The position numbers and the translations under genes are program-made. A stretch of DNA of 64,000 nucleotides, taken from a virus. The stretch is from positions 59,363 through 123,362 of the IMG/VR virus record IMGVR_UViG_3300037336_000053; one strand, given 5' to 3'. Under the pieces are notes generated by a model. The model searched no databases, was not told the origin of the DNA, and worked only from the letters and a program-made list of their open reading frames with translations. Positions 45,791-59,625 of the stretch are shown piece after piece (the stretch's first letter is position 1; the number at the start of each line of letters is the position of its first letter).

Positions 45791-46807
45791 TTAATTACCG
45801 CCTTTCAATAAGAACTTATTAGAAATTGCTTTGAACGAACATTGCATATCTAGAATCTTAAACACAAGTCCTTCTCGTTCACAACCAACCATTCCCATAA
45901 CTGACTTACCTTCTGCAGACATTAGCAGATCAGCAATGGTAGTTGACTCATCCATTGTGAGGGTTCCAAGAACAGGCACATGTTTAATATCAAACTCATC
46001 AACGAATGCTTTTCGTTCTGCAGGAGTAAAGTACTTGTTGGTATCAATATTGTAGATGTCAAACAAGAAAAAATCTTGTCCTTTGCTCTTATATGGATTA
46101 CCTTGAATACCTTCTCCAATCAGTTCACCTTGCAATGCAATATTACGATTAGCACGACGAAGTTTTAATTCTAGATCATTGGCAACTGCAACTTTCCACA
46201 GGCTGTTAGTTTCGCTTGGCTTGAGATCAAGATTACGTGAACAAACTCCAAACTCTCCATCACGCAAGTAAGCTGTCATTGACGCACCGTCTAGCTTTTC
46301 AGTAATTTCCCAAGCATGCTGTTCTTTAGCCCAGTATGCAAGTTCTTCCTTTAGATTCTGAATACGTTCTTGATCAGTCTTTTGAAGCCAACTTGGAAAC
46401 ATACCTTTAACTTCACCAGCAAGACATGCAGGAATAGGAGCTTCATACTTAGTGATACTAAGGATAGCAGAAACATCCATTCCTACTTCAAGACCAAGAA
46501 CACAAATACCGCCGATGTTTGCTGGCAGCAACAATCCTTGCGATAGTTGTCCACGCAGTCTAATAGTACGCAAGCGTTCGCCTGCAACACCGTCATACAC
46601 TCGCGGCTCGTTGCCTTTGCTGAGGAATGGTGCTAGTGCATGCGGGATCCATGAATCAATTTCACAGTAGACTGCATGGTCGCCAGTAGTATACTTATCG
46701 ATGGTGTCGACTACCCACCAACCATTCACCCGATATGCACAAATTTTATCAGCACCGTTGATAGGTTTAATTTCTTCAATTTTACGGATAGAAGCTAGAT
46801 TACGCAT
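45791..46807 (-). CDS. RNA ligase, Rnl5/DRB0094 type
   Basis: A 338-residue nucleotidyltransferase-type RNA ligase. An N-terminal OB-like domain (MRNLASIRKIEEIKPINGAD, GDHAVYCEIDSWIP) precedes the ligase core: ITEKLDGASMTAYL is motif I with the adenylated Lys, then CSRNLDLK, LQGELIGEGIQGNPY, and REGLVFKI. This order is that of Deinococcus Rnl5. Its promoter abuts the tRNA island, and such ligases can reseal tRNAs cut by host anticodon nucleases. Substrate not shown. Confidence 0.88.
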   Translation of the reverse strand: MRNLASIRKIEEIKPINGADKICAYRVNGWWVVDTIDKYTTGDHAVYCEIDSWIPHALAPFLSKGNEPRVYDGVAGERLRTIRLRGQLSQGLLLPANIGGICVLGLEVGMDVSAILSITKYEAPIPACLAGEVKGMFPSWLQKTDQERIQNLKEELAYWAKEQHAWEITEKLDGASMTAYLRDGEFGVCSRNLDLKPSETNSLWKVAVANDLELKLRRANRNIALQGELIGEGIQGNPYKSKGQDFFLFDIYNIDTNKYFTPAERKAFVDEFDIKHVPVLGTLTMDESTTIADLLMSAEGKSVMGMVGCEREGLVFKILDMQCSFKAISNKFLLKGGN

Positions 46808-47362: not shown

Positions 47363-47434
47363 CCATATATAAACGTTTTCATTCTGGCCGTTCCAGGGCC
47401 TGCGTTATACGTCTTTGAAAACGTTTATATATGG
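47363..47434. repeat. Perfect 18-bp inverted repeat capping the tRNA-Lys 3' end
   Basis: CCATATATAAACGTTTTC (47363-47380) pairs with 47417-47434 across a 36-base loop. The right arm contains the complement of the CCA end of tRNA-Lys, so in the transcript the CCA and 15 following bases form one side of a long hairpin. The loop holds a GGCC/GGCC mini-hairpin. Confidence 0.9.
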
Positions 47435-47505
47435 TAGGACTGCTCGGTAACGATCCGAGTTCTACTGGTTAAAAGCCAGTTGCTTCACCTTAAAGCTTCA
47501 ATCCC
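47432..47505 (-). tRNA. tRNA-Lys (TTT) with swapped T-loop
   Basis: Acceptor GGGATTG/CAGTCCT, D-stem GCTT/AAGC, anticodon stem ACTGG/CCAGT with loop CTTTTAA, T-stem CTCGG/CCGAG, CCA encoded. The T-loop is ATCGTTA, so the usual T54-A58 pair is A54-T58, and positions 8 and 14 are A and T rather than T and A. All stems pair well, so it is probably functional. Confidence 0.8.
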
Positions 47506-47555
47506 CTATCTTGCCACTCTTGTCACTATTCATGACAGATCTCCTTTAATTAACA

Positions 47556-47633
47556 TGGTACCCGGTGCAAGATTTGAACTTGCGACCCCAACCTTATCAA
47601 GATTGTGCTACTACCAACTGAGCTAACCGGGTA
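47556..47633 (-). tRNA. tRNA-Ile (GAT)
   Basis: Acceptor ACCCGGT pairs with ACCGGGT, D-arm TAGCTCAGTTGGTAG, anticodon loop TTGATAA, T-loop TTCAAAT, CCA encoded. Standard structure. Confidence 0.92.
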
Positions 47634-47637
47634 AAAT

Positions 47638-47711
47638 TGGCATAGGTGCAGGGATTTGAACCCCGATCGACGGTTTTGGAGACCGCTGTGTTGCCATTAC
47701 ACTACACCCAT
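47638..47711 (-). tRNA. tRNA-Trp (CCA)
   Basis: Acceptor ATGGGTG/CACCTAT, anticodon loop CTCCAAA, T-loop TTCAAAT, CCA encoded. First tRNA of the left sub-cluster, 30 bases after the GAAA-capped terminator. Confidence 0.92.
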
Positions 47712-47733
47712 ATAAAACTTTTCACTTATCCAT

Positions 47734-47770
47734 AAAAAAACCCCTGCTTGTATTTCTACTAAGCAGGGGT
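47734..47770 (-). terminator. Rho-independent terminator/attenuator before the left tRNA sub-cluster
   Basis: Minus strand: ACCCCTGCTT then a GTA-GAAA-TAC inner stem, then AAGCAGGGGT and seven T residues. It lies between a sigma-70 promoter (47903-47931) and the first tRNA downstream, so it would truncate that transcript unless read through. Confidence 0.85.
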
Positions 47771-47796
47771 GTATTAATCTTTAACTGACTGTTATG

Positions 47797-47868
47797 TCAA
47801 GATACACTCCTGCCTTCGCTAAACCAGCGAATGCAATGTTGTTTAATCTGTTTCATCATTGTAGTCAT
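47797..47868 (-). CDS. Possible leader peptide (23 residues)
   Basis: A 23-codon frame, MTTMMKQIKQHCIRWFSEGR and three more, lies between the sigma-70 promoter at 47903-47931 and the terminator at 47734-47770. AAAGAGA precedes the ATG. The spacing is like that of attenuator leader peptides, but no run of regulatory codons is obvious. Confidence 0.35.
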   Translation of the reverse strand: MTTMMKQIKQHCIRWFSEGRSVS

Positions 47869-48265
47869 TTTTAAATCTCTTTTAATTTCGTTGTATGTGT
47901 TTATTATACACAGTTATTTATCATTTGTCAACCACTATTAACAATTTAGATAGACTTTTTTAAATAAAAACGGAAGCGAAAAAGCAAGTAATGAACTGTG
48001 CAAAGTGCAGTCGAGATAGCCGTTAGCGTTTCTCACAAGCAAAATACAAAAATCAATATGCACAAGACTCGTATATTTCCAGTTTCAAAGTGCAAACGTT
48101 CTATTAACACTGGAGCATACAAGTACAGACACGTTTCAGGTGTGAGCCAGATTAGTTTATCGTTTAAACTTCAGACGAAGTTGTCAGTAACGACACTGGG
48201 GTCCATCCTCTCTCAATTTCTCTTCCGGGCAGCTTACGCTTCCAACGCATAGCCGCCAAAACTTT
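47869..48265. other. Gene-poor stretch with one promoter
   Basis: Apart from the promoter at 47903-47931 I see no convincing gene. A 28-codon minus-strand frame (48164-48250, MRWKRKLPGREIERGWTPVS) directly follows the stop of the 48266-48832 gene, and an 84-codon plus-strand frame lacks any ribosome-binding site; neither is supported. Confidence 0.4.
47903..47931 (-). promoter_or_regulatory. Sigma-70 promoter before the attenuator and left tRNA sub-cluster
   Basis: TTGACA (47926-47931), 17-base spacer, TATAAT (47903-47908) on the minus strand. The transcript meets the terminator about 130 bases later. Confidence 0.87.
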
Positions 48266-48832
48266 TTAAAGGATGTCTGCTTGCGTTAGAAACGACGCAG
48301 TAGTTTCATCCAATTTGATTTCTGCTTTTACATTTAGCTCTAGCAGTGAATCCTGTAATTTTTGTTTCTTACGTTTTAGTCCTGCAACTTCACGTTTGAA
48401 TTCATTGATTTCAGCAGTATCAAAGATGCCGGTATCAATTGTATCGAGTCGACCGTATAGCCGACTCTCGTCTTTGCTGTTGCGAACTTTGTCCAGCTTG
48501 CCTTCAATAACTGCATCACTTACACGAGCTGTCTTGGTTGCCAAACTGTTGACATGTTGAATGTTTTTCTCTAACATTGCAACTTCTGCCAGCATGTCAT
48601 TGATGCCTTGCGCTGCATTTACACTTGCAACTGCTTTGCGGATTTCAAACAATGCTCCCACTAGTTTGGTACGAGTCGTGTTGTTAGAAACAAAACGAGC
48701 ATGAACAGCATTGATTTGATCTTTGCTGTCTTCGTATTCGTTCAACGAAACACTGGCTTGAAAATCAAGTCCTTTGATTGCTTCATTGATTGATAGCTGT
48801 ATAGCATTTGCCTTACGTAGTGTGATTTGCAT
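48266..48832 (-). CDS. Coiled-coil protein inside the tRNA island, unknown
   Basis: A 188-residue almost fully helical protein (MQITLRKANAIQLSINEAIK, REVAGLKRKKQKLQDSLLEL). No catalytic motif seen. It is conserved-looking (balanced composition, own sigma-70 promoter at 48859-48887) and separates the two tRNA sub-clusters. It could bind RNA or a host protein, but I cannot assign a family. Confidence 0.6.
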   Translation of the reverse strand: MQITLRKANAIQLSINEAIKGLDFQASVSLNEYEDSKDQINAVHARFVSNNTTRTKLVGALFEIRKAVASVNAAQGINDMLAEVAMLEKNIQHVNSLATKTARVSDAVIEGKLDKVRNSKDESRLYGRLDTIDTGIFDTAEINEFKREVAGLKRKKQKLQDSLLELNVKAEIKLDETTASFLTQADIL

Positions 48833-48858
48833 TTTGATTCCTTTTACCTTATGTATTA

Positions 48859-48887
48859 ATTATAATGTCTTTTCTTGATCTTGTCAA
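48859..48887 (-). promoter_or_regulatory. Sigma-70 promoter
   Basis: TTGACA (48882-48887), 17-base spacer, perfect TATAAT (48859-48864) on the minus strand, about 25 bases before the ATG at 48832. Confidence 0.88.
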
Positions 48888-48898
48888 GCACTTTTTAA

Positions 48899-48985
48899 TT
48901 GGTGGAAGATGATGGTAACGCTCCACGTGCCTTGACTTCACTACCTTTAGGAACGGTTTTACAGACCGCCGTAGTGGGTATCTTC
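48899..48985 (-). ncRNA. tRNA-like RNA with GTA (Tyr) loop, no D-arm and swapped T-loop
   Basis: The ends form a perfect 7-bp acceptor (GGAAGAT/ATCTTCC) followed by ACCA. A GCGGT/ACCGT stem carries the loop CTGTAAA (GTA). A T-arm-like hairpin has the loop AGCGTTA. Only 10 bases separate acceptor and anticodon stem, so a D-arm is absent; instead CACTAC there can pair with GTAGTG beyond the anticodon arm. Total length (87) is like a class II tRNA. It may be a variant tRNA-Tyr or a tRNA mimic. Confidence 0.55.
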
Positions 48986-49012
48986 CTTATTTCTTATAAT
49001 CCTATATAAACT

Positions 49013-49086
49013 TGGTACATCGTGACAGGATCGAACTGCCGTCTCTGCCGTGTAAAAGCAGGGCCCTACCATTAGACGAACGATGC
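49013..49086 (-). tRNA. tRNA-Val (TAC)
   Basis: Acceptor GCATCGT/ACGATGT, anticodon stem CTGCT/GGCAG with loop TTTACAC, T-loop TTCGATC, CCA encoded. Confidence 0.88.
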
Positions 49087-49094
49087 ATTAATTG

Positions 49095-49185
49095 TGGCGG
49101 AAGGCTAGAGAGTCGAACTCTAAAGGCGCTATTAACGCTCGACGCATTTCAAGTGCGGTCCCATCGCCAATTGGGTTGGCCTTCC
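49095..49185 (-). tRNA. tRNA-Ser (TGA)
   Basis: Acceptor GGAAGGC/GCCTTCC, anticodon loop CTTGAAA, a long class II variable arm (GAGCGTTAATAGCGC), T-loop TTCGACT, CCA encoded. Confidence 0.92.
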
Positions 49186-49207
49186 TAAGACAAACAAGAT
49201 ACTCTGA

Positions 49208-49281
49208 AGCGGGGGATGGATTTGAACCAACGATCTCTAGCTTATGAGACTAGTGAGGACGACCAGACTCCTCTACCCCGC
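49208..49281 (-). tRNA. tRNA with CAT anticodon (Met or Ile2), no encoded CCA
   Basis: Acceptor GCGGGGT, anticodon stem CTAGT/GCTAG with loop CTCATAA, T-loop TTCAAAT. The 3' end continues TCA, so CCA must be added by an enzyme. The D-arm (AGTCTGGTCGTCC) resembles that of initiator tRNA, but the anticodon stem lacks the three GC pairs of initiators. Confidence 0.85.
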
Positions 49282-49518
49282 ATCAGAATACCCTACTCGC
49301 AATAACTTATACTTACCATTAGTTGTATTGTCTTGTTATGGACAACAATCGCCCTGTTGTCGTTTGCTTTTAACTTGGTAACTAGTATAGAAGCATCGGC
49401 CGATGCCAACTCTACTTTTGTTACTTCAAACTGGATATTCGATGCCTGCAGGACAGAGCGAACATTGCCAGTGCATTAGGCTAGTGGACACAGCCTTTTT
49501 CCAAAACAATACAACTAA
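49282..49518. other. Intergenic stretch between tRNAs, structured, with one unstarted frame
   Basis: This gap is mostly the loop of a 17-bp inverted repeat. It contains a 14-base palindrome (GCATCGGCCGATGC) and a GACAACA/TGTTGTC hairpin. A 61-codon minus-strand frame (49293-49475) without an ATG or GTG begins TGNVRSVLQASNIQFEV, faintly like the start of HisH amidotransferase; I do not count it as a gene. Confidence 0.4.
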
Positions 49519-49522
49519 TGGT
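49315..49522. repeat. Perfect 17-bp inverted repeat capping a tRNA-Glu 3' end
   Basis: ACCATTAGTTGTATTGT (49315-49331) pairs with 49506-49522 across 174 bases. The right arm includes the complement of the CCA end of tRNA-Glu, the same arrangement as at tRNA-Lys (47363-47434) and the second tRNA-Glu (50359-50446). Confidence 0.9.
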
Positions 49523-49593
49523 AACGCTACGGGGAGTCGAACCCCGCTCTTCAGGATGAAAACCTGATGACCTAACCGATAGTCGATAGCGTC
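49519..49593 (-). tRNA. tRNA-Glu (TTC), copy 1
   Basis: Acceptor GACGCTA/TAGCGTT, anticodon stem TCAGG/CCTGA with loop TTTTCAT, T-loop TTCGACT, CCA encoded. Confidence 0.9.
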
Positions 49594-49603
49594 ATATTAA
49601 AAC

Positions 49604-49678
49604 TGGTGGAGGTTAAGGGGATCGAACCCTTAACTCTGCCTTGCAAAGGCAGCGTGTTCCCATTAGCACTAAACCCCC
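49604..49678 (-). tRNA. tRNA-Ala (TGC)
   Basis: Acceptor GGGGGTT/AACCTCC, anticodon stem CTGCC/GGCAG with loop TTTGCAA, T-loop TTCGATC, CCA encoded. The usual G3-T70 identity pair of tRNA-Ala is present. Confidence 0.93.
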
Positions 49679-49683
49679 AATTT

Positions 49684-49757
49684 TGGTCTCCGATGCAAGA
49701 ATCGAACTTGCGCTCCTTGGTCCCAAACCAAGAGTGATACCATTTCACCAATCGGAG
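49684..49757 (-). tRNA. tRNA-Pro (TGG)
   Basis: Acceptor CTCCGAT/ATCGGAG, anticodon stem CTTGG/CCAAG with loop TTTGGGA, T-loop TTCGATT, CCA encoded. Abuts the omega-like gene. Confidence 0.92.
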
Positions 49758-49985
49758 TTATCTAATCTTTCGAATATACTCTAAGCCAATTTCACCGTTT
49801 TGGACTTCAAGTAATGCTGAAATAGGAGCATTAAATTGAGTACCATCATCTTTGTATCTATGTTGCCTTGCAAGCTCTCTTGCTCTTTGCGAAGCAATAA
49901 CTACCATAGTAAACCTATTTCCGATGTTGTCAACAATTTTCTCGTTGTCAAGAAGTCCTATTCGGCTATGTGTCTTGTCATTCAT
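49758..49985 (-). CDS. RNA polymerase omega (RpoZ)-like protein
   Basis: A 75-residue protein with the core of bacterial omega: DNIGNRFTMVVIASQRAREL matches the conserved NRFxLVxxAaxRARxL helix, and PISALLEVQNGEIGLEYI matches the following TVIALxEIxxGxI. Omega wraps the C-terminal part of beta-prime and stabilises RNA polymerase. The gene sits between tRNA-Pro and tRNA-Thr, ending on the base after tRNA-Pro. A phage omega could alter the host polymerase during infection. Similarity is judged by eye. Confidence 0.75.
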   Translation of the reverse strand: MNDKTHSRIGLLDNEKIVDNIGNRFTMVVIASQRARELARQHRYKDDGTQFNAPISALLEVQNGEIGLEYIRKIR

Positions 49986-50010
49986 ATGTTCCTTTTGTTG
50001 TTAAAAATAT

Positions 50011-50084
50011 TGGTGCCCCTTGACAGAATCGAACTGCCGTAGCCTGATTACAAAACAGGTGTAATACCATTATACTAAAGGGGC
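50011..50084 (-). tRNA. tRNA-Thr (TGT), copy 1
   Basis: Acceptor GCCCCTT/AAGGGGC, anticodon loop TTTGTAA on a CCTGT/TCAGG stem with one terminal mismatch, T-loop TTCGATT, CCA encoded. Confidence 0.9.
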
Positions 50085-50358
50085 GTTAATCTACTTATCT
50101 TCGTCTACTAAGCCCGTTTCCGGATTTGAACGTTTTGTTTCATACTGCTGCATCATCAATTCTTGTAACTCAGCAACATCGACTTCAGGTAATCGAGACC
50201 TCGTTTGATGTAATATGTTTCAATATGCAAACTCATTGTAGGTTGGATTTTGCAACCAACATGCAAGCCGAATATTGGCTCTGTCTTGTCTGTTAGACCA
50301 CTACGAGTTTTTGAGGTAATTACTCCCCAATCTGATTCAAGGTAAATTACTCCTTGCT
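50085..50358. other. Intergenic stretch, no confident gene
   Basis: On the minus strand a frame ends QQYETKRSNPETGLVDEDK at about 50091, open for about 34 codons upstream but with ATG only near the end, and no clear ribosome-binding site. It might be a remnant. The rest shows no tRNA or promoter that I can see. Confidence 0.35.
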
Positions 50359-50446
50359 ACCATATAGAAACATCCTAAGTTATCGACTGTTCTTGCGAAC
50401 TCCCTGTGAATAACAATTGGGGGAAATAAAGATGTTTCTATATGGT
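50359..50446. repeat. Perfect 16-bp inverted repeat capping the second tRNA-Glu 3' end
   Basis: ACCATATAGAAACATC (50359-50374) pairs with 50431-50446. In the minus transcript the CCA of tRNA-Glu opens the stem. The 56-base loop contains a nested GTTAT/ATAAC pair and GTTC-GCAA-GAAC, a GNRA-capped hairpin. Confidence 0.9.
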
Positions 50447-50518
50447 ACTCGGTAGGGGATTTGAACCCCTGTAGCCACCGTGAAAGGGTGATGTCCTAGA
50501 CCACTAGACGAACCGAGT
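50443..50518 (-). tRNA. tRNA-Glu (TTC), copy 2
   Basis: Acceptor ACTCGGT/ACCGAGT, anticodon stem TCACC/GGTGG with loop CTTTCAC, T-loop TTCAAAT, CCA encoded. Its sequence differs throughout from copy 1, so the two are not a recent duplication. Confidence 0.9.
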
Positions 50519-50544
50519 ACAGTACAATATTAAAGAACATTTAC

Positions 50545-50562
50545 AGAGTTACGATCAACTCT
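50545..50562. promoter_or_regulatory. Third copy of the tRNA-promoter dyad
   Basis: AGAGTT-ACGATC-AACTCT, a dyad sharing the GTTACGAT(G/C)AAC core with the operator-like repeats in the two tRNA promoters at 51529-51548 and 51616-51635. No promoter boxes are evident around this copy. Confidence 0.4.
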
Positions 50563-50627
50563 TTTTTAACCTATACGTTTATATACAACATATTTTTCAA
50601 ATAAAGTACACTACTTTTTAATAATGT

Positions 50628-50669
50628 TGGTGAGTAGTTACGGACTCGAACTCTCAATCTTTTCGGCAT
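50628..50669 (-). pseudogene. 3' half of a decayed tRNA
   Basis: The minus strand has a T-arm-like GAGAGTTCGAGTCCGT and an acceptor end AACTACTCACCA, but directly upstream lies the CCA of tRNA-Leu (TAG), so the 5' half is missing. Probably a remnant of recombination between tRNA genes. Confidence 0.6.
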
Positions 50670-50746
50670 TGGTGCCCTGGGAGAGACTCGAACTCTCAGC
50701 TTACGGCTTCTAAGACCGCTGTGTTTACCAATTTCACCACCGGGGC
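50670..50746 (-). tRNA. tRNA-Leu (TAG) with short variable region
   Basis: Leu-like D-arm (GTGAAATTGGTAAACAC), anticodon loop CTTAGAA, T-loop TTCGAGT, CCA encoded. The variable region is only about 5 bases, whereas bacterial leucine tRNAs have a long variable arm. One acceptor mismatch (pair 5). Confidence 0.82.
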
Positions 50747-50751
50747 ATTTT

Positions 50752-50830
50752 ACTCTACTGGCACACTCGTGCTCGTCAAATGTCCGGTGAGCTAACCGGT
50801 TCCTTTACTATGTAGAGTCTTTGAGTGTGC
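50752..50830 (-). ncRNA. Pseudoknot-like element between tRNA-Thr and tRNA-Leu
   Basis: Two complementary pairs interleave: ACTCTAC (50752-50758) with GTAGAGT (50812-50818), and GCACACTC (50761-50768) with GAGTGTGC (50823-50830). That order forms an H-type pseudoknot. Between them CCGGT/ACCGG makes a small hairpin. Confidence 0.5.
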
Positions 50831-50837
50831 TTTTATA

Positions 50838-50911
50838 TGGTGCCCCGTGACAGAATCGAACTGCCGACCGCTGATTACAAAACAGCAGTTATACCATTTA
50901 ACTAACGGGGC
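50838..50911 (-). tRNA. tRNA-Thr (TGT), copy 2
   Basis: Acceptor GCCCCGT/ACGGGGC, anticodon loop TTTGTAA, T-loop TTCGATT, CCA encoded. Very similar to copy 1 around the anticodon and T-arm, so the two probably share an origin. Confidence 0.92.
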
Positions 50912-50953
50912 CATATTTTACTTATCATACAGACTGTGCTGTATACTTAAAAC

Positions 50954-51027
50954 TGGAGCGGGATAGGAGAATCGAACTCCTGACATTAGATTGGAAATCT
51001 AAGGTAATACCATTTTACGAATCCCGC
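50954..51027 (-). tRNA. tRNA-Gly (TCC)
   Basis: Acceptor GCGGGAT/ATCCCGC, anticodon stem TTAGA/TCTAA with loop TTTCCAA, T-loop TTCGATT, CCA encoded. Confidence 0.93.
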
Positions 51028-51034
51028 ATAAACT

Positions 51035-51109
51035 TGGCGGTCTCAAGGGGTAACGATCCCCTTCTTCGACAGTGACAGTGTCGTGTGCGTCCATGAACAC
51101 TTTGAGACC
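51035..51109 (-). tRNA. tRNA-Asp (GTC) with swapped T-loop
   Basis: Acceptor GGTCTCA/TGAGACC, D-stem GTGT/GCAC, anticodon stem CGACA/TGTCG with loop CTGTCAC, T-stem AGGGG/CCCCT, CCA encoded. The T-loop is ATCGTTA (A54, T58), position 8 is A and 14 is T, exactly the exchange seen in tRNA-Lys. Confidence 0.82.
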
Positions 51110-51116
51110 TAATTAT

Positions 51117-51200
51117 TGGTGGAGCGTAATGGAATCGAACCATTCGTGGCTTTCGCCGGAGGATTTACAGTCCCCTGCCACACCTTGTAGCATACACTCC
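51117..51200 (-). tRNA. tRNA-Tyr (GTA)
   Basis: Acceptor GGAGTGT/ACGCTCC, anticodon stem GGGGA/TCCTC with loop CTGTAAA, class II variable arm CGGCGAAAGCC with GAAA loop, T-loop TTCGATT, CCA encoded. A normal tRNA-Tyr, unlike the odd RNA at 48899. Confidence 0.92.
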
Positions 51201-51210
51201 ATCAAATTCT

Positions 51211-51289
51211 TGGCTCCACATCTGGGTGACGATCCCAGCTAACCACGGATTAACAGTCCGGCCCATGCACCACGCTCGGGTTCTGTGGA
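51211..51289 (-). tRNA. tRNA-Asn (GTT) with swapped T-loop
   Basis: Six acceptor pairs (TCCACA/TGTGGA), D-stem CCCG/TGGG, anticodon loop CTGTTAA, T-stem CTGGG/CCCAG, CCA encoded. The T-loop is ATCGTCA (A54, T58) and position 8 is A, though position 14 stays A. The seventh acceptor pair is G-A. Confidence 0.75.
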
Positions 51290-51291
51290 AT

Positions 51292-51411
51292 AAACTTTGC
51301 TTACAAATACACACTCACAGGAATTGAACCTGCCCACTGAACTTTGAGCCCAGCTGTAATCCGCTACATCTGCCTGGCCTAAGCATTTGTGTGTATGTGT
51401 AAGCAGAGTTT
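51292..51411. repeat. Imperfect 23-bp inverted repeat extending the tRNA-Leu (CAA) acceptor
   Basis: 51292-51314 and 51389-51411 pair at 21 of 23 positions (core TGCTTACA/TGTAAGCA and ATACACAC/GTGTGTAT). The arms begin inside the acceptor stem and run outward, so the precursor would have a stem of some 23 bp in place of the normal 7. Confidence 0.75.
51309..51393 (-). tRNA. tRNA-Leu (CAA)-like, unusual D-region and extended acceptor
   Basis: Anticodon stem CTGGG/TTCAG with loop CTCAAAG (CAA), T-arm GCAGG-TTCAATT-CCTGT. Five acceptor pairs are good and two are mismatched, CCA is not encoded, the D-region is long and irregular and the variable region short. First tRNA after the triple promoter. 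It may be functional or degenerating. Confidence 0.6.
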
Positions 51412-53619: not shown

Positions 53620-53826
53620 TCATAGTTCCTCCGCAATTCCTAAAAATTCAGCGGCTGCCAAGAATAGAGCTAGTAATACTACTGAGCTTGTATATATTGC
53701 AACCAAACATCCTGCCAACCGCAACGCACTTTTTACAATACTGATATAAAAGTGTCGCTTGCTTGTGTCTTTAGGTTGAGGCACATGATCTTCATATTTA
53801 ATTGACATTTTATTTACGATTTCCAA
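53620..53826 (-). CDS. Small membrane protein
   Basis: A 68-residue protein with one membrane segment at about 31-60 (LRLAGCLVAIYTSSVVLLAL). ATG at 53808 (MSIKYEDHV) is an alternative start that would remove the overlap with the Bax-inhibitor gene. It lies between two conserved genes in the same direction. Unknown function. Confidence 0.5.
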   Translation of the reverse strand: MEIVNKMSIKYEDHVPQPKDTSKRHFYISIVKSALRLAGCLVAIYTSSVVLLALFLAAAEFLGIAEEL

Positions 53827-54484
53827 ATAGTTGTAGCAAGTGAATAAACAAGTTGATAAAGTCTAGGTACAGTGTTAGTGCGCCCATGACTTCTTGTTTG
53901 CCGGTGTCGCCACCTACACTTACCATTTCACGGATACGCTGTGTGTCATATGCAGTCAAGCCCAAGAACACAATGATAGCAATAGCTGAGATAACCATCT
54001 GCATTAGTGTACTACCAATAAAGATGTTCACAACACTGGCAATAATAATTGCAATTAATCCTACAATCATCATCTGTCCCATTGAGCTTAGATCCTTTTT
54101 AGTAAAATATCCGTAAATGCTCATAGTGCCAAACAGCACCCCTGCACCCATAAAGGCTGTAAAGATACTGCCCATTGTGTAGACTGCAAAGATTGTAGCA
54201 AAACTCAATCCCATTAAGCCAGCAAACGCATACAGAAACATCTGTAGTCCCGACTTGCTGAAATTAGCACTGGCAAAACTCATCACAAGGATTGCGGCTA
54301 ATGGTGCAAATATAACCACCCATTTTAGCATTCCTGTAAAAAAGAATTGCAATAGCTCTGGGCTAGTTCCTACATAGTAACTGACCAGCATGCTGATAAA
54401 CACAGCAATGCCCATCTGAGAATAAACTCTGCCCATTGCTTCATTGATTGCAGAAGCGTCTCTATAATTTGTTGTTGCGTACAT
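53810..54484 (-). CDS. Bax inhibitor-1/YccA family membrane protein
   Basis: A 224-residue integral membrane protein with seven predicted helices. SAINEAMGRVYSQMGIAVFIS at the start, AGLMGLSFATIFAVY in the middle and ITxxGLTAYDTQRIREM near the end match the BI-1/YccA/YbhL family. In E. coli YccA blocks the membrane protease FtsH, so a phage copy could restrain host quality control or control membrane ion leakage. The gene lies directly downstream of clpP, which supports a proteostasis theme. Confidence 0.9.
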   Translation of the reverse strand: MYATTNYRDASAINEAMGRVYSQMGIAVFISMLVSYYVGTSPELLQFFFTGMLKWVVIFAPLAAILVMSFASANFSKSGLQMFLYAFAGLMGLSFATIFAVYTMGSIFTAFMGAGVLFGTMSIYGYFTKKDLSSMGQMMIVGLIAIIIASVVNIFIGSTLMQMVISAIAIIVFLGLTAYDTQRIREMVSVGGDTGKQEVMGALTLYLDFINLFIHLLQLFGNRK

Positions 54485-54497
54485 TTAATATTTCCTT

Positions 54498-55112
54498 TTA
54501 TCGTTTATCTACAACCATATCAGCAAGACCATACTCAACTGCTTCAGCTGCATTTAAGAATGTGTCAAACTTCATAGTTTCAAACAGTTCAGCATACTGT
54601 TTACCTTTTGAGTTATGACGAACATACAGTTCTGTCAAACGAACGTTGATTTTCTTTGATTCTTCCATTGAACGGATAGCATCTTCAAACTGTAGTTCTT
54701 GTACATGTACACTACCGCTAGTGCCGCGTGTGCCTGAGCTAACACGGTGGATCATTGTACGACTCTCCGGTAGTACTACCCGCTTGCCTGCTGTACCCGC
54801 TTGTGCTAGGAATGAACCCATGCTACACGCTTGGCCCATTACAATAGTACGCACATCGCATTTGATGTACTGCATAGTATCATAAATTGCAAGACCTGCT
54901 GTTACTGCACCACCTGGGCTATTAATATACAAGTTAATGTCTTTGTCAGGATTGTCTGACTCTAGAAACAACATCTGCGCTACAATCAAGTTAGCCATGT
55001 TATCTTCTACTTGACCGTTAAGCATAACGATACGGTCTTTCATCAAGCGACTATAGATATCATAACTACGTTCGCCAGCTGAGGTTTGTTCTACTACCAT
55101 TGGTACTAGCAT
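54498..55112 (-). CDS. clpP: ATP-dependent Clp protease proteolytic subunit ClpP
   Basis: A 204-residue serine protease from the ATG at 55112, which has AAGGAAG 8 bases upstream and gives the usual length; an ATG at 55154 overlaps the previous gene. The catalytic Ser is in [10 protein letters not shown], the His in MIHRVSSG, and the Asp further on, so the triad is present. ClpP forms a tetradecamer that degrades proteins fed by ClpA or ClpX. With ClpA at the left end of the window it may form a phage protease, or mix with host subunits. Confidence 0.95.
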
Positions 55113-55113
55113 A

Positions 55114-55341
55114 TTAATATCTTCCTTGTTTAGTTGTATGTTGTTTTGGTCCAAGTGTGGTAAATTCCATACCTGCTATATTACCTACGTAAATTTTACC
55201 GTTCCATTTCATATGGATTTTAGTGTTTGCAACGAATGCATTTAGTGAATCGTGCTCACGCACGTCGTCAACTTCTGCTTCTACGCTTTGTGCATTGCGA
55301 GTATTAGTTAATATTGCTGTTTTATCAAATACAGTTTTCAT
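55114..55341 (-). CDS. Small protein next to ClpP, unknown
   Basis: A 75-residue protein ([20 protein letters not shown]) with a likely beta-barrel C-terminus ([20 protein letters not shown]). It ends one base before the clpP ATG and overlaps the gene upstream by 4 bases. The constant position beside clpP might mean an adaptor or regulator, but no family is recognised. Confidence 0.55.
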
Positions 55342-59197: not shown

Positions 59198-59625
59198 TAG
59201 AAATTGTTGTTAAATGCTACAGGCGTTTTTGTCAGCCCGGTAATAAGCTGATAGTTGTCCCACGCTTTTTGTTGTGCAGGTGTCATTTCATTTTGCGGAA
59301 CTACACAGTCTAACCAGTAATAGTCCAAGCGGTAAACGTGAGCACCAACCTGTCGCGGTTGGTGCAGTTTGCCTGAGTTGTATAACTCTAGTGTAACGTC
59401 ACGGAACTTCTGCTCATCTTCAACAAGGTAATCTATCCATTCGGGATTGCTGTACGGACTACCAAACGTTTGACCGCCGCCATATCCTTCCCAAATACCA
59501 AGCCACTGCTCGTCGTTACGCGGATCAAAATCTGTGCGAGCAACAATTACCAGCACATCTCGTAATGCTACCTTACCATCAACAATGTCGCGAATACAAC
59601 GACTGTAACTTAATCCAATTTTCAT
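59197..59625 (-). CDS. Conserved phage protein, unknown
   Basis: A 142-residue protein (MKIGLSYSRCIRDIVDGKVA, VLVIVARTDFDPRNDEQWLG, WEGYGGGQTFGSPYSNPEWI). The pattern is a conserved family of large marine phages. It follows a sigma-70 promoter (59658-59686) and a strong AAGGAGC ribosome-binding site, so it is probably made early. Confidence 0.62.
   Translation of the reverse strand: MKIGLSYSRCIRDIVDGKVALRDVLVIVARTDFDPRNDEQWLGIWEGYGGGQTFGSPYSNPEWIDYLVEDEQKFRDVTLELYNSGKLHQPRQVGAHVYRLDYYWLDCVVPQNEMTPAQQKAWDNYQLITGLTKTPVAFNNNF

Follow-up and report, generated by a model that had tools for sequence, protein, structure and literature searches.

Must a tRNA hold its elbow together with the canonical tertiary pairs T54-A58, U8-A14 and G18-U55? 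The question is raised by a tRNA gene array on the minus strand of a 64,000-nucleotide stretch (the window; positions 59,363 to 123,362) of the 123,362-base virus record IMGVR_UViG_3300037336_000053. The array, at ~46.9-51.3 kb of the window, contains 21 tRNAs called by ARAGORN plus a tRNA-Ser, a tRNA-Asn and one odd tRNA-Tyr. The first-pass annotation had noticed that tRNA-Lys, tRNA-Asp and tRNA-Asn carry A54 and T58, and our cloverleaves bear out the T-loops (ATCGTTA in Lys and Asp, ATCGTCA in Asn) as well as A8 and T14 in Lys and Asp; Asn has A8/A14, hence, as that annotation implied, no 8-14 exchange. In tRNAs of many bacterial viruses, elbow contacts are swapped in matched pairs, apparently with tRNA identity kept. 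As judged from sequence comparisons, these are probably working tRNAs that maintain the L-shape by tertiary pairs other than those of cellular tRNAs. In addition to the previously noticed exchanges, we describe an 18-55 exchange (G-T to A-G), loss of the normal 15-48 pair and a pseudoknotted RNA at 48900-48986.

The three window tRNAs each have a 7-bp acceptor stem, an anticodon arm, a 5-bp T-stem carrying the variant loop, a CCA end and the discriminator of its isotype. Lys and Asp fold as cloverleaves, and Asn has one mismatch in the acceptor and one in the anticodon stem. In place of the canonical tertiary set, A54-T58 is found in all three and A8-T14 in two, while relatives have A18-G55; the eukaryotic-type A54/A58 combination is absent from them, since they carry T58. 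With a gathering score of 29, Rfam RF00005 recovers Lys and gives no match for Asp, Asn or the 48900-48986 RNA, and the minimum free energy (MFE) fold of tRNA-Asn is not significant (z -0.02). Same-body relatives of tRNA-Asn are found at three other viral loci (L056, L060, L080). The remaining array tRNAs scored by the cloverleaf scan have canonical TTCRA loops and canonical 54-58 pairs. The RTCGTYA 7-mer alone is unremarkable in the window (33 matches versus ~26 expected). However, the variant T-loop is not a chance match, because it recurs in hundreds of viral tRNAs with 24 anticodons.

This recurrence was established by scanning IMG/VR in two ways, with the T-arm plus CCA and with an 18-mer of the Asp D-arm. 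Class I tRNAs with A54-T58 amount to 322 distinct sequences from 213 viral loci, confirming the proposed recurrent subclass in unrelated isotypes. The D-arm scan, which leaves the T-loop free, yielded 113 distinct matches, and those in tRNAs have nearly all ATCGTTA; in L379 (TTCGATA) and L401 (CTCGATA), the body is almost unaltered while residues 54 and 58 have both changed. Cultivated phages of nine host genera have some A54-T58 tRNAs. Among these phages, tRNA-Phe with A54-T58 is encoded by Aeromonas TS3 and LAh_6, Bacillus CM1 and BM15, Vibrio pv27, Streptomyces WRightOn and Stenotrophomonas DLP6, the last of which has it also in Ile, Asn and Glu. The corresponding tRNA-Lys is found in Arthrobacter Racecar, Xanthomonas X1 and Synechococcus BUCT-ZZ01; that of BUCT-ZZ01, a phage of strain PCC 7942, combines A8/T14 with the loop ATCGTTC. 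A 642-kb uncultured phage has several A54-T58 tRNAs. Some variant genes of the cultivated phages are unannotated in public records. In the huge phage L489 (LR756502.1), the tRNAs mostly end in ACAA, with no encoded CCA. Loci hit by chance held only 12 tRNAs, too few for an unbiased viral frequency. Searches of an open-access subset of the literature turned up nothing on A54-U58 or A18-G55.

A host origin of the variant loops was considered and rejected, since among ~700 bacterial genomes scanned no inspected match was such a tRNA. The A54 loop pattern gave ~106 matches in 398 genomes of one phylum and the A54/G55 loop gave 42 in 296 genomes of another; 40 inspected loci contained no such tRNA, most of the 106 being uninspected. 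For the A54 pattern, forward counts exceeded those of the reversed-pattern control, which therefore does not settle the matter by itself; counts of the T54-G55 loop were near or below the control. The Asp D-arm 18-mer has four matches in 257 Gb of cellular genomes; only one of them falls in a tRNA, which is encoded on a short metagenome-assembled genome (MAG) contig. One real A18-G55 tRNA-Tyr lies in a tRNA array on a MAG contig (L503), which shares its phylum with an Acidobacteriota-titled record; this contig is perhaps from a phage.

To test the exchanged pairs for covariation, we used 1872 representatives of class I tRNAs, less than 90% identical to one another, with shuffling within anticodon. 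Besides 15-48, the strongest links are 54-58, 54-60 and 18-55, and the mutual information z-scores are 203 for 18-55, 112 for 54-58 and 53 for 8-14. The first-pass annotation had predicted that 8-14 and 54-58 would covary, and both do. Since the scans selected A54/T58 loops, we recounted the pairs in the 1713 representatives matching no search pattern. Here, too, 54-58 covaries: T-A occurs in 1555, A-T in 56, A-A in 43, G-G in 27 and C-A in 23, with any other combination at most twice and T-T once. At 18-55, G-T is found in 1592, A-G in 100 and mixed states in 21, a result free of this selection bias because the T-loop scans placed no constraint on residue 18. C56 and nearly always G19 were required by the scan, and nothing is claimed on 19-56. 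In near-identical pairs of tRNAs, positions 18 and 55 change jointly 19 times and singly never, while 54 and 58 change jointly 34 times and singly nine times. The tRNA-Glu genes of L397 and L007 differ only at 18, 54, 55, 57 and 58 (G18A; ATCGT to GGCAG). Discriminator bases are unchanged per isotype across relatives, and Ala retains G3-T70.

Most loops without T54-A58 come with A60 and a lost Levitt pair: G15-C48 or A15-U48 is present in 10% of A54-T58 and 9% of A54-A58 tRNAs versus 72% of those with T54-A58. The pairs A-A, C-A and G-G at 54-58 can belong to the trans Watson-Crick/Hoogsteen family of U54-A58. To our knowledge, A54-U58 is not isosteric with U54-A58 and thus needs its own geometry, a possible reason for the accompanying changes at 60 and 48. 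At 8-14, the covarying states are T-A, T-T, A-T, A-A and G-G, partly together with residue 21. A8-T14 associates with A54-T58 within the Asp and Lys lineages, and the two exchanges had been presented as flipping together. As a general rule, such linkage is rejected: 143 A54-T58 representatives keep T8-A14, and 40 with A8-T14 keep T54-A58. The exchange at 8-14 is confined to certain lineages, and that at 54-58 does not depend on it.

The A54-T58 type is common among Ile, Asp, Lys, Phe and His tRNAs; those for Leu, Arg, Cys and Pro almost lack it (3/432, versus 210/1440 in other isotypes). Its near-absence in Leu fits the leucine identity elements of E. coli, G18:U55, G19-C56 and U54:A58, given in PMC9976931. 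The 54-58 type follows isotype and does not cluster by phage (484 versus 510 +- 21). A18-G55 clusters strongly by virus, with 306 pairs versus 72 +- 9. It can be phage-wide, leaving the tRNA set almost wholly recoded: G55 is present, across isotypes, in 31 of the 32 T-loops of the L286 contig (G776), and the L305 contig has it in 12 of 13. One Enterococcus phage encodes a tRNA-Tyr, filed as pseudo, with the T-loop TGCAAAT and AAG in its D-loop. Trees built on tRNA bodies suggest many switches (32 in Ile, 23 in Phe), counts that short trees inflate and that have no shuffled baseline.

The odd tRNA-Tyr has an architecture of its own. A tRNA-like RNA with loop AGCGTTA had been reported near 48899; the loop is present, within 48900-48986, but it belongs to a fold that is not a cloverleaf. 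Using BLAST and descriptor searches, a 17-mer scan and a scan with residue 18 and the T-loop free, we collected 56 distinct members of this family. All follow one layout: an acceptor strand is followed by GCC, the 6-nt strand a, an R and the Tyr anticodon arm, then by strand b, a linker, a', the elbow strand and b', and finally by the T-arm, the second acceptor strand and ACCA. No D-arm precedes the anticodon arm; in its place all 56 have a 10-nt leader, of which the 6-nt strand a pairs 3' of the anticodon arm. Tyr identity is apparently kept, with A73 in 56/56, CCA in 54/56 and G1-C72 in the listed members, the GTA loop being fixed by search design. All 24 distinct a/a' combinations are fully paired, with a' located by best pairing with a, and the paired fraction is 0.70 +- 0.03 when strands are swapped. 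The b/b' pairing score is 3.64 versus 2.20 +- 0.21 for swaps. Helix a/a' encloses b but not b', so the two helices cross and form a pseudoknot around the anticodon arm. As the MAFFT alignment misregisters a', pairs were counted on structure-anchored fields. The MFE fold of the window member is not significant (z -1.07), and the fold rests on covariation.

The 53 members with G55 have AAGTN or TAGTT after a', and the three with T55 (L113, L382, L642) have TGGTT or TGGCT. This match of dinucleotide and residue 55 (AG with G55, GG with T55) repeats the 18-55 rule, which suggests that the elbow strand is a relocated D-loop; the three GG/T55 members, from about two lineages, make the case strong but not final. 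Arrays with the pseudoknotted Tyr rarely hold a canonical one (3/40 versus 109/250 arrays, p = 3e-6); thus, the former usually replaces the latter. The window is an exception, with both Tyr(GUA) architectures in one array. The Tyr-family layout, with TGG and T55, recurs in Arg(UCU) genes of three loci (L079, L260, L342). A different D-loop relocation is found in Arg(ACG) genes of L043, L076, L287, L307 and L325, which have a leader of the TATCCCC type and a short helix that closes on the 3' side of the anticodon arm, mostly with GG in between.

Features of the array and its surroundings (window coordinates)
Feature	Position	Strand	Elbow and structural details	Evidence or remark
RNA ligase gene (PF09414), adjoining the array	45791..46807	-		Pfam E 3.9e-31; phrog_968
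tRNA-Lys(UUU)	47432..47505	-	T-loop ATCGTTA 47448-47454; A8 at 47498; T14 at 47492; 15-48 = A-A	ARAGORN; Rfam tRNA 49.2 bits; fold z -2.66
D-arm-less pseudoknotted tRNA-Tyr(GUA)	48900..48986	-	Acceptor GGAAGAT/ATCTTCC; a CACTAC 48971-48976 with a' GTAGTG 48939-48944; b CCT 48949-48951 with b' AGG 48930-48932 (only 3 bp in this member); anticodon arm 48953-48969; elbow strand AAGTC 48934-48938; T-arm 48911-48927, loop AGCGTTA 48916-48922; ACCA	Covariation among 56 distinct members
tRNA-Asp(GUC)	51035..51109	-	T-loop ATCGTTA 51051-51057; A8 at 51102; T14 at 51096; 15-48 = C-A; G73	ARAGORN; relatives picked by D-arm nearly all ATCGTTA
Canonical class II tRNA-Tyr(GUA)	51117..51200	-	T-loop TTCGATT	ARAGORN and cloverleaf scan; second Tyr tRNA of the array
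tRNA-Asn(GUU)	51211..51289	-	T-loop ATCGTCA 51227-51233; A8/A14; G73	Own cloverleaf scan; overlooked by ARAGORN and Rfam

The RNA ligase gene beside the array has a possible role in tRNA repair. On the same strand, a 3' tRNA fragment lies behind tRNA-Leu (50628-50668), and at ~51300-51395 there is a degenerate sequence that resembles Leu(CAA) but lacks CCA. Genes for a Bax1-I family protein and ClpP are located near the array (53810-55154).

What would maintain such tRNAs? The elbow could be closed by any of several alternative pairs, namely, T-A, A-T, A-A, G-G or C-A at 54-58, G-T or A-G at 18-55 and T-A, T-T, A-T, A-A or G-G at 8-14, with partners changing jointly while the tRNA bodies and the checked identity bases stay; we infer that the L-shape is kept and that the tRNAs are charged and used in translation. 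In the Tyr family and some Arg tRNAs, the strand with residues 18-19 would sit after the anticodon arm, held by the pseudoknot, and still match residue 55. We lean towards the view that phages have evolved a new tRNA topology that preserves the covarying 18-55 contact; with the phage-wide A18-G55, it would be an elbow-level counterpart of anticodon-loop escape. As to the selective pressure, our preferred but tentative reading is escape from host enzymes that read the canonical elbow, for example, tRNases of anti-phage defence or of competitors; the first-pass annotation had suggested escape from elbow nucleases or from m5U54 modification. In that case, synthetases that depend on the elbow (LeuRS, probably ArgRS, CysRS and ProRS) would keep their tRNAs canonical. 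One toxin known to cut the elbow is CdiA-CT E479, whose cleavage site in the T-loop separates the conserved thymidine from the pseudouridine (reviewed in PMC9086364), and Cas12a3 contacts the T-arm backbone (PMC12851939).

Several points weigh against this interpretation. The 54-58 sample was enriched by the search for A54-T58 loops, and its frequencies are not population estimates. Relatedness inflates the covariation statistics, and the p-values ignore it. Ile has the highest A54-T58 share although 54-58 is listed in the Ile identity cluster (PMC9976931), which argues against a simple synthetase rule. Finally, the elbow is not fast-evolving overall: close pairs differ at 54 in 2.4% of cases and at 55 in 1.2%, compared with up to 19% at other positions, which leaves room for neutral compensation. 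Under such drift, supplementary phage tRNAs would tolerate weakly harmful single changes, compensated later, and the new elbow would bring no advantage. We consider this doubtful. The existence of several mutually exclusive solutions and a plausible stepwise path among observed loops (TTCGAAA, ATCGAAA, ATCGTAA) agree with it, but single-change intermediates are rare, as the 21 mixed 18-55 states and the single T-T attest, A18-G55 clusters by whole phage, and five concerted changes occurred in an otherwise identical tRNA-Glu.

The bacterial uridine modifiers ThiI, TrmA and TruB produce s4U8, m5U54 and pseudouridine 55, respectively. Exchanges that remove these sites would let the tRNAs work without the host enzymes, the new pairs replacing the stability that modification provides. 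Indeed, the most common alternatives lose U8, U54 or U55, and the almost uniform G55 of L286 is expected if one enzyme is unreliable. This explanation is nevertheless unlikely, because 54-58 changes track isotype rather than phage and many tRNAs of the same arrays retain all three uridines. Decaying or non-translational tRNA-like RNAs, suggested by the pseudogene labels or missing annotation of some such genes, are highly improbable and were rejected, in line with the original argument against decay, because elbow pairs covary while anticodon, discriminator, CCA and Ala G3-T70 are conserved, stems are compensated, and the two Tyr forms are mutually exclusive, the canonical one being replaced.

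Elbow pairs are treated as near-universal, and the natural covarying replacements are candidate solutions with which to probe the needs of the ribosome, RNase P, synthetases and modification enzymes. Gene finders overlook or mislabel several of them (Asn and Tyr in the window, others in cultivated phages), and viral tRNA counts are thus incomplete. The relocated D-loop, if true, would revise the minimal tRNA topology and could serve orthogonal tRNA design. Escape from nucleases by elbow change, if true, would add a new layer of tRNA warfare, testable in cultivated phages.

The idea of escape is shared with phage tRNA anticodon-loop variants that evade host tRNases (van den Berg 2023, PMC10264068), a study whose main text does not mention T-loop, D-loop, elbow or tertiary contacts. 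Like the Tyr family, D-armless mitochondrial tRNAs, tRNA-Sec, tRNA-Pyl and plant-virus tRNA-like structures are non-cloverleaf or pseudoknotted; these known RNAs can be charged, and none is described, in the excerpted text of PMC9976931, with the D-loop dinucleotide 3' of the anticodon arm. The plant-virus pseudoknots lie in the acceptor arm, unlike that of the Tyr family. Phage T5 resembles the viral set in having G8/G14 in tRNA-Asp and A8/T14 in tRNA-Thr; its T-loops recovered by our scan are canonical, whereas its relative Aeromonas TS3 has the A54-T58 tRNA-Phe. The T-loop of the eukaryotic initiator tRNA, AUCGAAA, shares A54 and A60 with the viral tRNAs and also occurs among them, but here the isotypes are elongators and U58 is dominant. 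A close parallel is eukaryotic tRNA-Ala with A54/A58 and R15/A48, in which 54-58 is likewise replaced along with a non-Levitt 15-48; this combination is reported to be lacking in tRNAs of bacteria and archaea (Westhof et al. 2020, PMC7566577). That case concerns one isotype and A-A only, whereas the tRNAs described here are viral, span most isotypes and mainly exchange A and U.

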